A stretch of 64,000 nt of DNA from Micromonospora sp. NBC_01813 (GTDB lineage Bacteria; Actinomycetota; Actinomycetes; Mycobacteriales; Micromonosporaceae): positions 3,533,001 through 3,597,000 of the forward strand of contig NZ_CP109067.1 in the NCBI RefSeq assembly GCF_035917335.1, read 5' to 3'. Both the position numbers and the translations under genes were made by a program. Shown here one piece after another: positions 36,781 to 41,424 of this stretch (position 1 is its first letter; each line of letters opens with the position of its first letter). Under the pieces are notes generated by a model. The model searched no databases and was not told the DNA's origin. It was given only the letters and a program-made list of their open reading frames with translations.

Positions 36781-37605
36781 TCACAGGCTGCCGCCGATCG
36801 CTCCGCCCTCGGCCGGCGGTGGGTGGGTGACGCTGCGGTCGAGCCACCCGTCGCCGTCGTCGTCGTGGTGGACCTGCTCGAAGAAGCCGTCACCATCGGT
36901 GTCGTACGCCGCCGACTCCACCAGTCCGTCGGCGTCGTCGTCGCGGCCCACGAAGTCGACTCGGCCGTCGCTGTCGTGGTCCACCAGGATGTCCACGCCG
37001 CCGTCCGCCCGCCCACGCACGACGTGCTGATCCCACTCGCCGTCGCCGTCGACGTCGACCCAGGTCTGGTAACCCTCCGGCACGGCCGGCTCGACCGGCG
37101 GCCCCGCCGGGCCGAAGCCGGCGGCGGGTTCCGACGGTGGTGCCGCCGCGTCACCCGGCTGCAGCAGGTCACCGATCTGCGCACCGTACCCGCCGAGGAC
37201 GCCCCCGCCCGAGCCCGGATCGACCGGTATCGCACCGGCCGGGCCGAACCCACTGGAACCAGGGTCAGCCGGGCCGAACCCGCTCGAACCAGCGTCGGCC
37301 GGGCCGAACCCGCTGACCGCACCCTCGCCGCCACCGAACCCGCTGACCGCACCGAAGTCGCCGAGCCCGTCCAACATGCCGCCGAGCGGGCTGAACAGCC
37401 CGAACCCGCTGGACTGGTTGGCACGCGTCTCCACCGCTGCCGTACCGCCGGCATCCTCGTCGCCGCCCAGCTGGGTGCCCAGCAGCGCCACCTCGTCGGC
37501 GGTCAGCTGATAGCCGGCGAGCGCCGCCCCACGGTCAGCGGCGAGCGCTGACGCGAACGCCGGATCGGTCAGCAGGCGTTCGAGAACCGTGTCGAAGTCA
37601 CTCAA
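36781..37605 (-). CDS. Leader-like N-terminus + SGFG repeats + DxDxDG calcium-type repeats
   Basis: This 274-aa protein has three parts. Residues 1-44 form an amphipathic helical stretch (FDTVLERLLTDPAFASALA, AALAGYQLTADEVALL) that resembles Franean1_4349/NHLP-type leader peptides. Residues about 65-165 are Gly/Pro-rich with repeated SGFGPAD units. Residues about 180-262 hold at least five calcium-type repeats (DVDGDGEWD, DHDSDGRVD, DDDADGLVE, DTDGDGFFE, DDDGDGWLD). There is no signal peptide or cysteine. TTG 37605 is chosen from GGGAGAG upstream and from the leader-like helix. It follows the Cys-rich protein (98-bp gap) and the M50 protein. A substrate of that protease is a plausible role; function is unknown. 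Confidence 0.72.
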   Translation of the reverse strand: MSDFDTVLERLLTDPAFASALAADRGAALAGYQLTADEVALLGTQLGGDEDAGGTAAVETRANQSSGFGLFSPLGGMLDGLGDFGAVSGFGGGEGAVSGFGPADAGSSGFGPADPGSSGFGPAGAIPVDPGSGGGVLGGYGAQIGDLLQPGDAAAPPSEPAAGFGPAGPPVEPAVPEGYQTWVDVDGDGEWDQHVVRGRADGGVDILVDHDSDGRVDFVGRDDDADGLVESAAYDTDGDGFFEQVHHDDDGDGWLDRSVTHPPPAEGGAIGGSL

Positions 37606-37703
37606 CGCCGCTCTCCCTCGTCGATGTCGACCCAGGGTAGCCCGGCCGGCCGACCAGCCCAACCGGCCAGGACGGCGCCGTACCGGCCGCGCGGCCGCCG
37701 CCG

Positions 37704-37919
37704 TCAGTCCAGCTCCGGCATGGGTACGGGCTGCGGCCTCGGTCGGCAGGTGCCGCACTGCAGGGCGTCCTCGACCACCAGGCCCTCGGCCCGCCCGCGC
37801 CGCTCGGAGCGGTGCACCTCCAACAGGTACGGGCCGAACCGGGCATGGTCCTCACACAAGCCCCGGCCACAGAATCGGCAGCCACCCCGCGCCGACTTCG
37901 GGCAGAACCAACAAAGCAC
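37704..37919 (-). CDS. Small Cys-rich (zinc-finger-like) protein, 71 aa
   Basis: The protein has seven cysteines and one His: CWFCPKSARGGCRFCGRGLCEDH at the N-terminus and CGTC further on. The pattern C-x2-C-x7-C-x2-C-x4-C-x2-H resembles a zinc-binding treble-clef or B-box-like fold. GTG 37919 has GGAG 8-11 nt upstream. It begins 13 bp after the M50 protein's stop, so they are co-transcribed. I do not recognise the family. It may be a metal-binding partner or chaperone of the locus. Confidence 0.72.
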   Translation of the reverse strand: MLCWFCPKSARGGCRFCGRGLCEDHARFGPYLLEVHRSERRGRAEGLVVEDALQCGTCRPRPQPVPMPELD

Positions 37920-37932
37920 CTTGAATCTCCAC

Positions 37933-40900
37933 TCAGCTGACGTTCGTCGCGGGGCCAGTGGCCTGGCAGCCGGCTACCTGGACGGTTGATTGCAGCGGGG
38001 CGCTGGTGCGCCCATTGCGGTCGGTGGCCACCGCCCGGACCGTGAGGGACCCGCCCTCGTTCGGTTTGGAGTCGTACCGCACCGGCCCGACCGCGCCGTA
38101 GAAGGTATCCCCGTCCAGACTCATCTGGGTGCTTCCCTCGGCGTAGTCGCTCCACGACAGCAGGATCGAAACTCCCTCGGTGTCGCCCTGCACGGTCACG
38201 GCGGCCGACGCGACGGTCGAGTTCGGGCCGCCGCAGGGATTGCCGTTGACGTCCTGTCCGATCTCGCCGCGCGGCTGCTCCGCCCAGAAGATCACCAGGA
38301 GTGGTGGCGGCGGTGAGGTGGTAGGCGGCGGTTCGCTCGTCGGCGGAGCCGTGGTCGGTGGCGGCTCACTCGTCGGTGGTGGGCTGGTCGGCGGGTCAGG
38401 GCTCACCGGTGGTGCCGTCGGGCCGGGGGTGGGGCTCGGCGCCGGCGGGGTGGGGAGCAGACCGGGCACCGGCAGCTGGCTGACGCTCGGGCTGGGCAGC
38501 GGCGTCGGCACCGGCTGCCGGGTGGCCGACAGGTCCGGCGACGGGCTCTGTACCGTCGGCGACTCCGGCAGGGTCTCCTCCGGCACCGGAGCGCTCGGCG
38601 TGCCGCCGGGCGGCGTCACCGCGTACCCGTCGCCGCAGCCGAGCTGCTCCCCGGTCGCCCGCTGAGTCACCCCGTTGCGGCGTACCTCGCCGGTCGACAC
38701 CCGGACCGACCCGGAGTTGACCGCGAACCAGGCCTCCCCCCGGTTGGCCAGCACCGCGCTGCCGCTGCCGACCGTCAACGCCAGTGGTCGGAACGCGCCG
38801 GAGGTGCTGGCCGTGTCGGCGAGGATCCGACCCCGGTCCAGGACCAGTTCACCGCTGGGTGCGACCGGACGGGTACCGCTGCTCCAGAGCGCTCCGATCT
38901 GGGCCTGCGAACCGGCGCACAGGACGCTCGCCGCCCCGCCCCGGAACACCAGCTCGCCGGTGGAGCGGTCGCGTACCTCGATCCGATCCCCGTCGGCGAC
39001 GTAGGCGGCCGCGCCGTCGCGCAGCAGGACCGTCCGGCCCTCGGCGGTGTGCACCTCGACGGTGCCGCGCTCGGCGCGCAGCAACGCCCGGTCGGCGGGC
39101 ATCTCCGCCCACGCCGGTCCGGGCATCAGATTGCCACCGGTGATCAGCAGGGCGAACAGCAAGAGCAGCAGCACCAGCCACCAGAGTCGACGTTCGAACC
39201 GACTATCGACCTGATCGTCGACGCCCAGCGGCGGCGGGCCGGGCGGGGCGGCCAGCGGCGGGTAGTCGGCCGGCGGATGTGCCCCGCTCGCCGGGGGGCC
39301 GCCCCGGACGGCGGCCGCGTCGTCGGCGACCACCTGCGAAGGGGCCGCACCGAGCAGCATCGGCAGCCCGGCGACCGCCGGCAACTGCCACAGTCGGACC
39401 GGCGTACGGGTGGTGGCGACCACATCCGGTGGCTCGGCGCCGACCGGCCCGATCATCGTGCCGCGCCGCAGCTCGGTGCCGTCCATCAGGGCGATGACCC
39501 CCGATTCGAGCACCACCGCGTCGTACGGGCCGGACAGCCGGACCGGCGACCCCGGCGGTAGCGACACCTGTCTGGCCCGGGACACCAGGCCGAGGCGGTC
39601 CTCCGGGGTGAGCCCGGACAGCGCCGGTGTCTCGGCGAGCAGCGACTCGGCCGCGATGCGGTCGGCCGGCGGCGGGCCGGGCAGCGGCCCGACGACGGTG
39701 GCGACCGCCGCCGGCGGCAACGTGAGCAGGGTGGTGCCGGCGGTGTGCCAGGTGAGAGCGGCCGGGGTCCCGGTCAGCGCGCTGGCCAGCCCGACGAGCC
39801 CGCCGGGGCCGAGTCGCTGCCGTACGGTGCCGACCGGGTCGCCAGGGGCGCGGCCTTCCACCGCCCCGTCGACGACCACGAAGACGGCCGGTTGGGCGGC
39901 ACCGGCGGCGACGAGTTGCTCACCGGTGCGTGGGTGCACCCAGCGGGCCTGCGCGGCGAGCCGGTTGAGTGCGCTGGCCGGCAGGGTCCGCAGCGCGCTG
40001 GCGCGCAACGCGTCCAACCGGCGGGGCGTGTCCGAGGCGTGTCGTCGCTGCGCGAGCCGGGCCCGCAGTCGCCGCCAGCGCCGGGCCAGCCAGCCGAGGA
40101 CCAGGTACACCAGCGGTGCCGCCAGCCCGGCGACCACCGCCGCCAGCAGCAGCCGGGCCGGCCAGCCGGATCGCCACAGGCCCGTGACGAGCCCGGCCAC
40201 CCGGTCGGTCCAGATCCGCCAGAACAGGTTCACCGCGATGACCACCCAGAGCACGGCGAGCATGCCGTAGAGGGCGACCAGCCGACCTTCGCGGTCCAGC
40301 GCCGCCCAGCGCGGCCCGCGTCGCCGCAGCCGACCGGTGACGTACGCCAACCCGCGGGCCCGCAGGTTGGGGATCTCCAGCCAGTCCATCAGCAGGTAGT
40401 AGCCGTCGAGGGCGAGGAACGGGTTGAGGTTGAACAGCGCGTTGAGATACCAGGCGAAGGCGAGCTTGAACGTCCACGGCGCGGCGGCCGGGAAGAGCAG
40501 TCCGACGATGCCGGCGATGCCGGCGAGCACGAGTCCGGCGGCGGGTCCGGCGGCGGTGGTGATCAGCCGGGATCGACGACCGGCCATCCACACGTCGGTG
40601 GTGTCGACGAACACCGACGGGATGCCGAAGTAGACCAGGAAGCCGGCGGCCGGCACCCGGCGGCCGGCGTGCCTGGTGGCCAACGCATGACCGAGTTCGT
40701 GGCAGGCGAGGGCGACGACGTTGAGCCCGAGCAGCACCGCCGCGCCGGCGACGTACGACCCGTTGGTGAGGAAGACCGCCTGCTCGCCGCGCCACCACGT
40801 CCAGCAGAAGGCGGCGAAGCCGGCGAGCCCGACGACCGCCAGCAGGACCGCGGCGACGCGGGTGAACAGGAACCGGCCGCCGCCGCGGTAGAGGGCACCG

Positions 40901-41424
40901 ATCAGCGGATCGACGTTGGCCAGCACGGTACGCCGACCCTGCGCGACGGCCAGCAGGGTGCGGCCGAGGCGGACCGGCCACGGCCGGCGGTGCACCCGGT
41001 CCAGCGGGCGGAACACGTCGACCGGCAGCTCGGCGAGCATCCGGTTGCCGGCCAGGTCGGCGACGACCCGGGTGACCTGGTCGGGGGCGAGCCGGCCGGC
41101 GATCCGGGCGAACTCGGCGACCAGGCGGGCCACCGTACGGCTGCCGTCCATCAGTTGGGCGAGCTGCCACTCCTGCGGGGTGAGTCGCAGGTAGCAGGCA
41201 CCACCACGGTCGTCCGGGGAGCGCAACATCACGTACGGCAGGCCACGGACCGAGACGAGTTCGACGTACTCGATGCCGGGGCGCAGCACCGGTCGGGCGC
41301 GGGCCGGGTTGAGCCGCTCGACGACGGCGCCCCACAGTCCGGCGTCGGCCGGGGCGACCGGCTGGCCCGGCGCCCGACCGGCCAGGGCCTCCCACACGCT
41401 CATCCTGGTCTCGACGACCGTCAC
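37933..41424 (-). CDS. PqqD-like / M50 zinc protease / cNMP-like / FecR-like membrane protein
   Basis: This 1163-aa protein starts at GTG 41424 (GGAGGAG upstream). Parts in order: a PqqD-like domain (about 75-135: YLRLTPQEWQLAQLMDGSRT); a polytopic site-2-type protease with HELGH (242-246) and the third motif NLNPFLALDG (332-341); two cyclic-nucleotide-binding-like domains (about 475-700); a membrane segment (about 748-765, LVLLLLLFALLITG); a FecR-like beta region (about 785-930: TVEVHTAEGRTVLLRDG); a Pro/Ser/Thr-rich linker; and an extracytoplasmic Ig-like end with two cysteines. YydH-like peptide zinc proteases also pair PqqD and M50 parts. The protein could process a peptide and sense or regulate it. 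This is the key gene of the unusual locus. Confidence 0.82.
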   Translation of the reverse strand: MTVVETRMSVWEALAGRAPGQPVAPADAGLWGAVVERLNPARARPVLRPGIEYVELVSVRGLPYVMLRSPDDRGGACYLRLTPQEWQLAQLMDGSRTVARLVAEFARIAGRLAPDQVTRVVADLAGNRMLAELPVDVFRPLDRVHRRPWPVRLGRTLLAVAQGRRTVLANVDPLIGALYRGGGRFLFTRVAAVLLAVVGLAGFAAFCWTWWRGEQAVFLTNGSYVAGAAVLLGLNVVALACHELGHALATRHAGRRVPAAGFLVYFGIPSVFVDTTDVWMAGRRSRLITTAAGPAAGLVLAGIAGIVGLLFPAAAPWTFKLAFAWYLNALFNLNPFLALDGYYLLMDWLEIPNLRARGLAYVTGRLRRRGPRWAALDREGRLVALYGMLAVLWVVIAVNLFWRIWTDRVAGLVTGLWRSGWPARLLLAAVVAGLAAPLVYLVLGWLARRWRRLRARLAQRRHASDTPRRLDALRASALRTLPASALNRLAAQARWVHPRTGEQLVAAGAAQPAVFVVVDGAVEGRAPGDPVGTVRQRLGPGGLVGLASALTGTPAALTWHTAGTTLLTLPPAAVATVVGPLPGPPPADRIAAESLLAETPALSGLTPEDRLGLVSRARQVSLPPGSPVRLSGPYDAVVLESGVIALMDGTELRRGTMIGPVGAEPPDVVATTRTPVRLWQLPAVAGLPMLLGAAPSQVVADDAAAVRGGPPASGAHPPADYPPLAAPPGPPPLGVDDQVDSRFERRLWWLVLLLLLFALLITGGNLMPGPAWAEMPADRALLRAERGTVEVHTAEGRTVLLRDGAAAYVADGDRIEVRDRSTGELVFRGGAASVLCAGSQAQIGALWSSGTRPVAPSGELVLDRGRILADTASTSGAFRPLALTVGSGSAVLANRGEAWFAVNSGSVRVSTGEVRRNGVTQRATGEQLGCGDGYAVTPPGGTPSAPVPEETLPESPTVQSPSPDLSATRQPVPTPLPSPSVSQLPVPGLLPTPPAPSPTPGPTAPPVSPDPPTSPPPTSEPPPTTAPPTSEPPPTTSPPPPLLVIFWAEQPRGEIGQDVNGNPCGGPNSTVASAAVTVQGDTEGVSILLSWSDYAEGSTQMSLDGDTFYGAVGPVRYDSKPNEGGSLTVRAVATDRNGRTSAPLQSTVQVAGCQATGPATNVS

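Follow-up and report, generated by a model that had tools for sequence, protein, structure and literature searches.

A stretch of 64,000 nucleotides from the genome of Micromonospora sp. NBC_01813 (7.63 Mb, one contig), hereafter the window, carries three consecutive minus-strand genes at positions 36781-41424. They encode a large membrane protease (P1), a small Cys/His protein (P2) and a protein with a leader-like domain (P3). P1 and P2 form the core of the locus. P2, considered as an accessory in the preliminary description, is the most conserved of the three proteins and is also found as partner of PrsW, a protease of another family. We see an even chance that the locus encodes a leader-guided intramembrane-protease module in which P2 is a dedicated adaptor and P3 the probable client in this organism. 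The P1-P2 gene set, conserved in soil actinobacteria, has the appearance of a processing or signalling module not yet described.

Domain organization of P1, P2 and P3

Each of the three genes has a purine-rich site ahead of its start and a gene-like third-position GC content. Their close order, with P2 starting 13 nt after P1, is confirmed. The features of the locus are given in Table 1.

Table 1 Features of the P1-P2-P3 locus in window coordinates
Feature	Position	Strand	Basis
P1, 1163 aa: RRE/PqqD-like domain, M50 site-2-type protease, two CNB folds, TM helix, beta-rich (weakly FecR-like) ectodomain, Pro-rich linker, C-terminal beta domain	37933..41424	-	profile searches, alignment, structure prediction
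P1 N-terminal tail, residues 1-46; motif copies SVWEAL and GLWGAV; model confidence mostly very low	41287..41424	-	
P1 RRE/PqqD-like domain, residues 40-140	41005..41307	-	profile matches; predicted three strands then three helices
P1 M50 site-2-protease domain, about residues 150-440; HELGH 242-246; NPFLALDG with D340	40105..40977	-	
P1 two CNB folds, residues 461-689, without canonical phosphate-binding cassette	39358..40044	-	
P1 TM helix and beta-rich ectodomain, weakly FecR-like, residues 736-935	38620..39219	-	
P2, 71 aa, Cys/His protein; C3, C6, C14, C17, C22, H25, C55, C58; predicted long beta hairpin; conserved tail PRPQPVPMPELD; probable zinc protein	37704..37919	-	
P3, 274 aa: Os1348/NHLP leader-like domain (residues 3-42), Gly-rich SGFGPA linker, C-terminal domain with five DxDxDG-type loops; candidate substrate	36781..37605	-	

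P1 had been described as a fusion of PqqD-like, M50, cNMP-binding-like and FecR-like parts. The M50 domain is strongly supported by profile search. Its HExxH and LDG motifs are invariant in the 30 aligned P1 sequences. M50/site-2 proteases have HExxH and a distal aspartate in transmembrane helices, and hydrophobic segments of P1 are located near residues 190-208, 223-241, 296-314, 382-400 and 425-443. The best family match of P1 is the daptide protease NF041824 (E 1.7e-36; 126.1 bits for a cut-off of 300). A weaker match to the YydH/LiaK family NF058609 (4.5e-11; 42.9 bits for a cut-off of 225) is confined to the protease core. Five neighbours were scanned in the window: a gene without family match, a trypsin/PDZ protease and a histidine kinase upstream, and an ABC ATPase and an opposite-strand protein kinase downstream. 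No daptide aminotransferase, decarboxylase or methyltransferase was found among them, and a daptide cluster was rejected on score and neighbours.

Profile searches give moderate support to the PqqD-like domain, modeled here as an RRE/PqqD-like domain predicted to bind leaders. Matches of this part, searched with 25 homologues, fall on RiPP leader-binding families, the daptide protease included (ApyI, best, 1.7e-5; daptide 3.9e-4; ScmD 5.7e-4; PaaA chain 0.0042). Those of the window copy lie far under the cut-offs, and Pfam PqqD is reached at just 0.038, in one of the 25 homologues. The predicted succession of strands and helices is the one expected of an RRE.

The two cNMP-binding-like domains also hold, as CNB folds, and it is the CNB part of P1 that fills its structure-search lists. 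We scored these domains with a pattern that we take to describe the phosphate-binding cassette. All eight aligned P1 without ectodomain have cassettes and none of 22 ectodomain-type P1 has, the window copy also being devoid of them. Thus, judging from the alignment, the input of P1 seems to have been exchanged between the two forms, cyclic nucleotide in one case and ectodomain in the other. As for the FecR-like part, it finds weak support, since PF04773 is matched by 3 of 16 homologues (best E 0.0021) and not by the window copy; it is absent from most distant P1.

Three side observations concern P1 and P1-like genes. In Phytohabitans suffuscus (L049), P1 is called as two overlapping frames of 825 and 283 aa, which indicates a frameshift, either of the gene itself or of the sequence data; because of this split, this copy was omitted from the P1 alignments. 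The window's genome contains a second daptide-protease-like M50 gene, far off (L059; G000:C1:5881372-5882421, open frame of 924 aa, E 6.4e-21). Loci L060-L066, of the same family, form a separate M50 group with HESAH or HEAAH motifs and 512-571 aa (one called at 386 aa), at about 9-11 kb. Several copies start, by eye, with an FHA-domain-like region, and the gene that follows resembles a kinase (34-36% to that of the window). These proteins are possibly phospho-signal-linked intramembrane proteases.

P2 has a mean column identity of 91% over 21 rows without gaps. P1 and P3, aligned over other sets of rows (23 and 19), have 60% and 32%, respectively. The eight Cys/His positions of Table 1 are kept in 25 of 25 copies from the phylum, with tails like PRPQPVPMPEL. 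Window P2 reaches 14.3 and 15 bits with the zinc-finger profiles C5HCH and DUF2180-like (cut-offs 26.3 and 22.2), and at E <= 0.1 these profiles are matched by 23 and 22 of the 25 homologues. From the spacing of its Cys and His residues and these weak family matches, P2 probably binds zinc. In the predicted model (pLDDT 85.1, pTM 0.62), two long strands (27-38 and 43-54) are followed by a tail of lower confidence. No Foldseek match reached E <= 0.001 (best 1.8), which is no proof of a new fold.

A precursor-sized protein that is a constant partner of the protease could itself be the substrate: P2 would be a small Cys-rich precursor, with its tail read by the RRE of P1. The conservation of the tail beside both protease types, M50 and PrsW, goes in this direction. 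However, precursor cores usually vary, and P2 is conserved throughout, Cys/His positions included. In addition, P2 matches no leader family, and two PrsW proteins scanned show no RRE/PqqD match, yet their P2 keeps the tail. We regard this possibility as improbable.

P3 was thought to carry a RiPP-leader-like helix, and this is borne out by the Os1348/NHLP-type profile NF038399, matched by 19 of 19 aligned P3 at E <= 0.001. For a cut-off of 40 bits, the window copy reaches 35.8 bits and one distant P3 41.8 bits. Past the leader come a variable Gly-rich linker and a C-terminal domain, which is conserved and contains three to five DxDxDG-type loops. This acidic part is probably calcium-binding. 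No hydrophobic or transmembrane segment is found in window P3 (the top 19-residue mean among 19 copies is 1.61); most known site-2 substrates have a transmembrane segment. Part of the Actinoplanes-group loci have a shorter P3 in which the leader domain is absent, and at other loci no P3 was detected. At L044 (17079-17597), about 3.7 kb past P3, a 172-aa protein rich in DxDxDG-type repeats resembles the C-terminal domain of P3.

An RRE, a daptide-type M50 protease and an NHLP-clan leader sharing one locus could also suggest an ordinary RiPP cluster in which P3 would give rise to a small modified peptide. Three observations make this quite improbable: no modifying or tailoring enzyme is present among the five window neighbours scanned, many loci from different genera share the gene order, and P3 ends in a conserved loop-rich domain, not in a short core.

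Linkage and distribution of P1 and P2

We collected 77 related loci in named genomes, of which 73 fall under Micromonosporaceae, two in Amorphoplanes, one in an 'Actinobacteria bacterium' MAG and one in a Nitriliruptoraceae MAG. L123, L143 and L180, at contig ends, were dropped, leaving 74; L175 was counted as a miss though a contig end cuts its P1. P2 directly follows P1 at 63 of the 74 loci, nearly all from Micromonosporaceae. The gap between the P1 stop and the P2 start is -1 to 58 nt in 61 of these 63 cases and -216 and 310 nt in the other two. The leader domain of P3 was found near P1 in 33 loci, every one with P2, and the C-terminal domain of P3 in 46. Since the leader domain was not found in the other 41 loci, P1 and P2 cannot exist for P3 alone. 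The constant unit is the P1-P2 pair and not, as proposed earlier, the protease together with the leader protein.

Homologues of all three genes do occur together in many genomes, as had been anticipated. Of 23 stretches around long P1 homologues (L035-L057), 20 have P2 after P1 and 18 have a P3 homologue nearby. A histidine kinase homologue is present upstream in 15 and an ABC ATPase downstream in 12. Genes at the loci come from a home-made caller, which placed the P1 start of L047 too late.

Across 61 genomes of the family, P2 is found in 25, all with P1 or a piece of it. One genome (G030) has P1 without P2 and 35 have neither (Fisher p 3e-16, the genomes not being independent). G002 and G005 were scored as P1-positive from pieces; other M50 proteins (e.g. 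in G022, G048 and G053) were not scored as P1. Linkage and co-occurrence rule out a chance row of genes. In G024, P2 and P3 are together on a contig other than that of the P1 found (L225). Pilimelia terevasa (L168/L035) is the one family genome with P1 in which no P2 was found; its P1 tail has one copy of the motif described below instead of two and its protease motif is HECGH. At L226, in a fragmented assembly, P2 adjoins an apparently shortened P1 (M50 and CNB pieces only), with a P3 C-terminal domain nearby. Plasmids gave no P2 match, and for P1 just partial M50 matches in four Azospirillum plasmids.

A P2 profile matched 27 of 396 genomes of the phylum, 22 of them strongly (E <= 3.2e-17; 24 places). 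Two strong genomes, G097 and G177, were left out of the fetched stretches. Among 20 distant P2 stretches from 19 genomes, 17 contain a P1-type M50 protease, and the RRE profile matched 16 of these 17. The CNB profile is weak in L188, L191 and L197, and L185 gives no signal with it. P1 is missing from three stretches: L182, where P2 is at a contig end, L199 and L200. Profiles of the ectodomain and of P3 matched only L181, which is on the same contig as L171 (Nitriliruptoraceae MAG) and has three P3-type leader genes upstream of P1. With a query from L189, a CRP-type HTH gene was found downstream of P2 on the same strand at 17 of 17 loci (L182-L198), within 620 nt in 15. Two CRP-type proteins were checked; their matches are to cNMP and HTH families, with none to a membrane family. 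In 10 of 16 distant loci, a small membrane protein is seen, by eye, ahead of P1. At L186, P2 is present twice, at a distance of about 9.3 kb, and each copy has a CRP-type gene of the same start next to it; P1 lies about 1.8 kb past the first copy, not directly beside P2. This is probably a local duplication.

A clear P2 is found in 7 of 296 genomes of the class of G151; an eighth match (L215) is false. One of these loci, L210, has P2 with an ectodomain-type P1. At L199, L200 and L211-L214 (six of six loci), P2 sits between PrsW and a small protein of 109-120 aa. PF13367 (PrsW) is matched in four distinct loci, L211 and L212 being near copies of L200. In a search of eight genomes, four had a PrsW, each time the copy beside P2. 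For the small protein of L200, matches to winged-helix families are weak (best 9.4e-5); that of L199 has no Pfam match.

PADLOC found nothing for window P1, P2 and P3, and a role in anti-phage defence was rejected. At distant loci, it matched the P1 of L189 to Pycsar proteins on the CNB region and gave a weak CARF match (0.0013) for the small protein of L213.

A tryptophan motif in the tails of protease and partner proteins

A tail motif, [GS][LVI]Wxx[LV], is common to P1, PrsW and the small winged-helix-like protein. In P1 it lies in the tail before the RRE, with the pattern x[VLIAMF][WF]xx[LVIF], mostly [GSD][VLI]Wxx[LVI]. Two copies are present in 20 of 23 family P1 and 13 of 17 distant P1, and one copy in two and three, respectively. 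L047, whose start is called too late, and the distant L197 have none. P1 cannot serve to test the motif, its sites having been selected by pattern. A matrix built from 57 P1-tail sites was scanned over other proteins. It passes 6.1% of 213 background proteins at p 0.05 and 1.4% at p <= 0.01.

The four small winged-helix-like proteins all pass (p <= 0.0015), as do three of four PrsW (p <= 0.0185). The remaining PrsW scores 0.17, its tail containing three look-alikes. The scan is not blind for L199 and L200, from which the idea of the motif came; L213 and L214 were fetched after the motif had been noted, and they give 0.001 and 0.001 for the small proteins and 0.17 and 0.0165 for PrsW. L211 and L212, as near copies of L200, were omitted. 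As a control, 11 of 12 M50 proteins without P2 have no motif site in their first 120 residues (exception L064, p 0.036); their starts come from the home-made caller, so some tails may be missed. A weak tblastn match to the P2 tail beside the short M50 group (L060, L062) was dropped.

No significant site was found at the expected place in 12 P3 proteins or in the window copy (p 0.56); L039 scores 0.009 elsewhere. The same holds for the WSEF site of 15 leaderless P3, two of which have p < 0.04 at other positions, and for four CRP regulators. The motif is thus unsupported in these three groups, and a common motif is claimed on the strength of P1, PrsW and the small proteins. Upstream of distant P1, the membrane proteins have tails that finish in or near S[VI][YW]xx[IVL]; one of six passes the matrix, the other five failing because Tyr mostly replaces Trp.

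The CRP-type and winged-helix-like neighbours speak for signalling, which makes regulated intramembrane proteolysis for gene control the main rival. P1 or PrsW would act on or through the adjacent regulator, P2 would be an adaptor or co-regulator, and P3 a lineage-specific passenger or a calcium-dependent effector. The constancy of both neighbours at the distant loci and the phosphate-binding cassettes of ectodomain-free P1 fit this scheme. So does the argument, in the accessible part of PMC3482391, that peptidases of the PrsW family likely act in signalling when fused to cNMP, FHA or Zn-ribbon domains. However, the two CRP-type proteins checked match no membrane family and the four scanned lack the motif, no CRP-type regulator is present among the direct neighbours of the window locus, and gene control leaves the RRE and the leader domain of P3 unexplained. 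Control of gene expression appears possible but doubtful.

Proposed function and relation to known systems

In the leader-guided module that we favour, the site-2-type zinc protease P1 would pick its clients on the cytosolic side by means of its RRE/PqqD-like domain. Its regulatory domains would gate it: the tandem CNB domains in ectodomain-free forms and, in Micromonosporaceae, where the nucleotide sites are degenerate, the extracytoplasmic beta domain. P2, probably zinc-bound, would most likely be an adaptor that binds [GS][LVI]Wxx[LV] in flexible tails and joins the protease and its partners. Against such a role, P1 retains both motif copies in 10 of the 11 counted loci without adjacent P2.

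The association of an RRE with an NHLP-type P3 makes leader-guided processing of P3 the best guess in Micromonosporaceae. The RRE would read the Os1348/NHLP leader-like domain and the protease would cut the leader off, releasing the acidic, probably calcium-binding C-terminal part. Three facts stand against P3 as client: no significant motif site is found at the expected place in P3, the window copy has no transmembrane segment, and no tailoring enzyme is present among the neighbours scanned.

More tentatively, P2 could found a bacterial adaptor family that serves the unrelated M50 and PrsW intramembrane proteases through one tail code, [GS][LVI]Wxx[LV]. Inputs (cyclic nucleotide or extracytoplasmic domain) and outputs (CRP regulator, winged-helix-like protein or leader-bearing P3) would be swapped between lineages; we lean against this broader idea. 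If P2 is indeed an adaptor, it would provide a handle on client choice by such proteases in actinobacteria and would link two protease families through one partner. Where its nucleotide cassettes are intact, P1 would be an intramembrane protease gated by cyclic nucleotides.

Among the open PMC papers listed by our searches, we found no account of P2, the P1-P2 pair, its PrsW counterpart or the motif. RRE-M50 proteases are already known, as are PrsW fused to cNMP or zinc domains, the latter from the accessible part of PMC3482391. The daptide protease MpaP/DapP (NF041824) has, like P1, an RRE in front of an M50 site-2-type protease, and MpaP removes the leader in an RRE-dependent manner in the daptide pathway (PMC10036551, as far as its available text goes). 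P1 differs from it by its CNB domains, its ectodomain and its P2 partner, and by the lack of daptide enzymes among the neighbours scanned. The YydH/LiaK epipeptide metalloprotease (NF058609) is also of M50 type and is named for RiPP maturation; its likeness to P1 is limited to the protease core.

The Os1348/NHLP clan (NF038399, PF14407 Frankia_peptide) resembles P3 in the N-terminal domain. In contrast with Os1348, of 85 aa according to the available part of PMC7726476, P3 is a long protein that also has a Gly-rich linker and a DxDxDG-repeat domain. The TMcin protease TmcP (S2P clan, DUF3267) strips a leader at the membrane, as proposed for P1. It belongs to another family, no RRE or CNB domain is mentioned for it in the accessible sections of PMC13252029, and its precursor has a transmembrane helix, unlike window P3. 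The fused PrsW of PMC3482391 combine an intramembrane protease with nucleotide or zinc domains, and PrsW is also the alternative partner of P2. P1 is nevertheless of another family, and a separate P2-like protein, an RRE or a tail motif is not described in the portion of that article available. Small peptide pathways already provide examples of leader-guided intramembrane proteases; here, a probable one is found in a conserved, often syntenic locus, beside a 71-residue partner that is more conserved than the protease itself.
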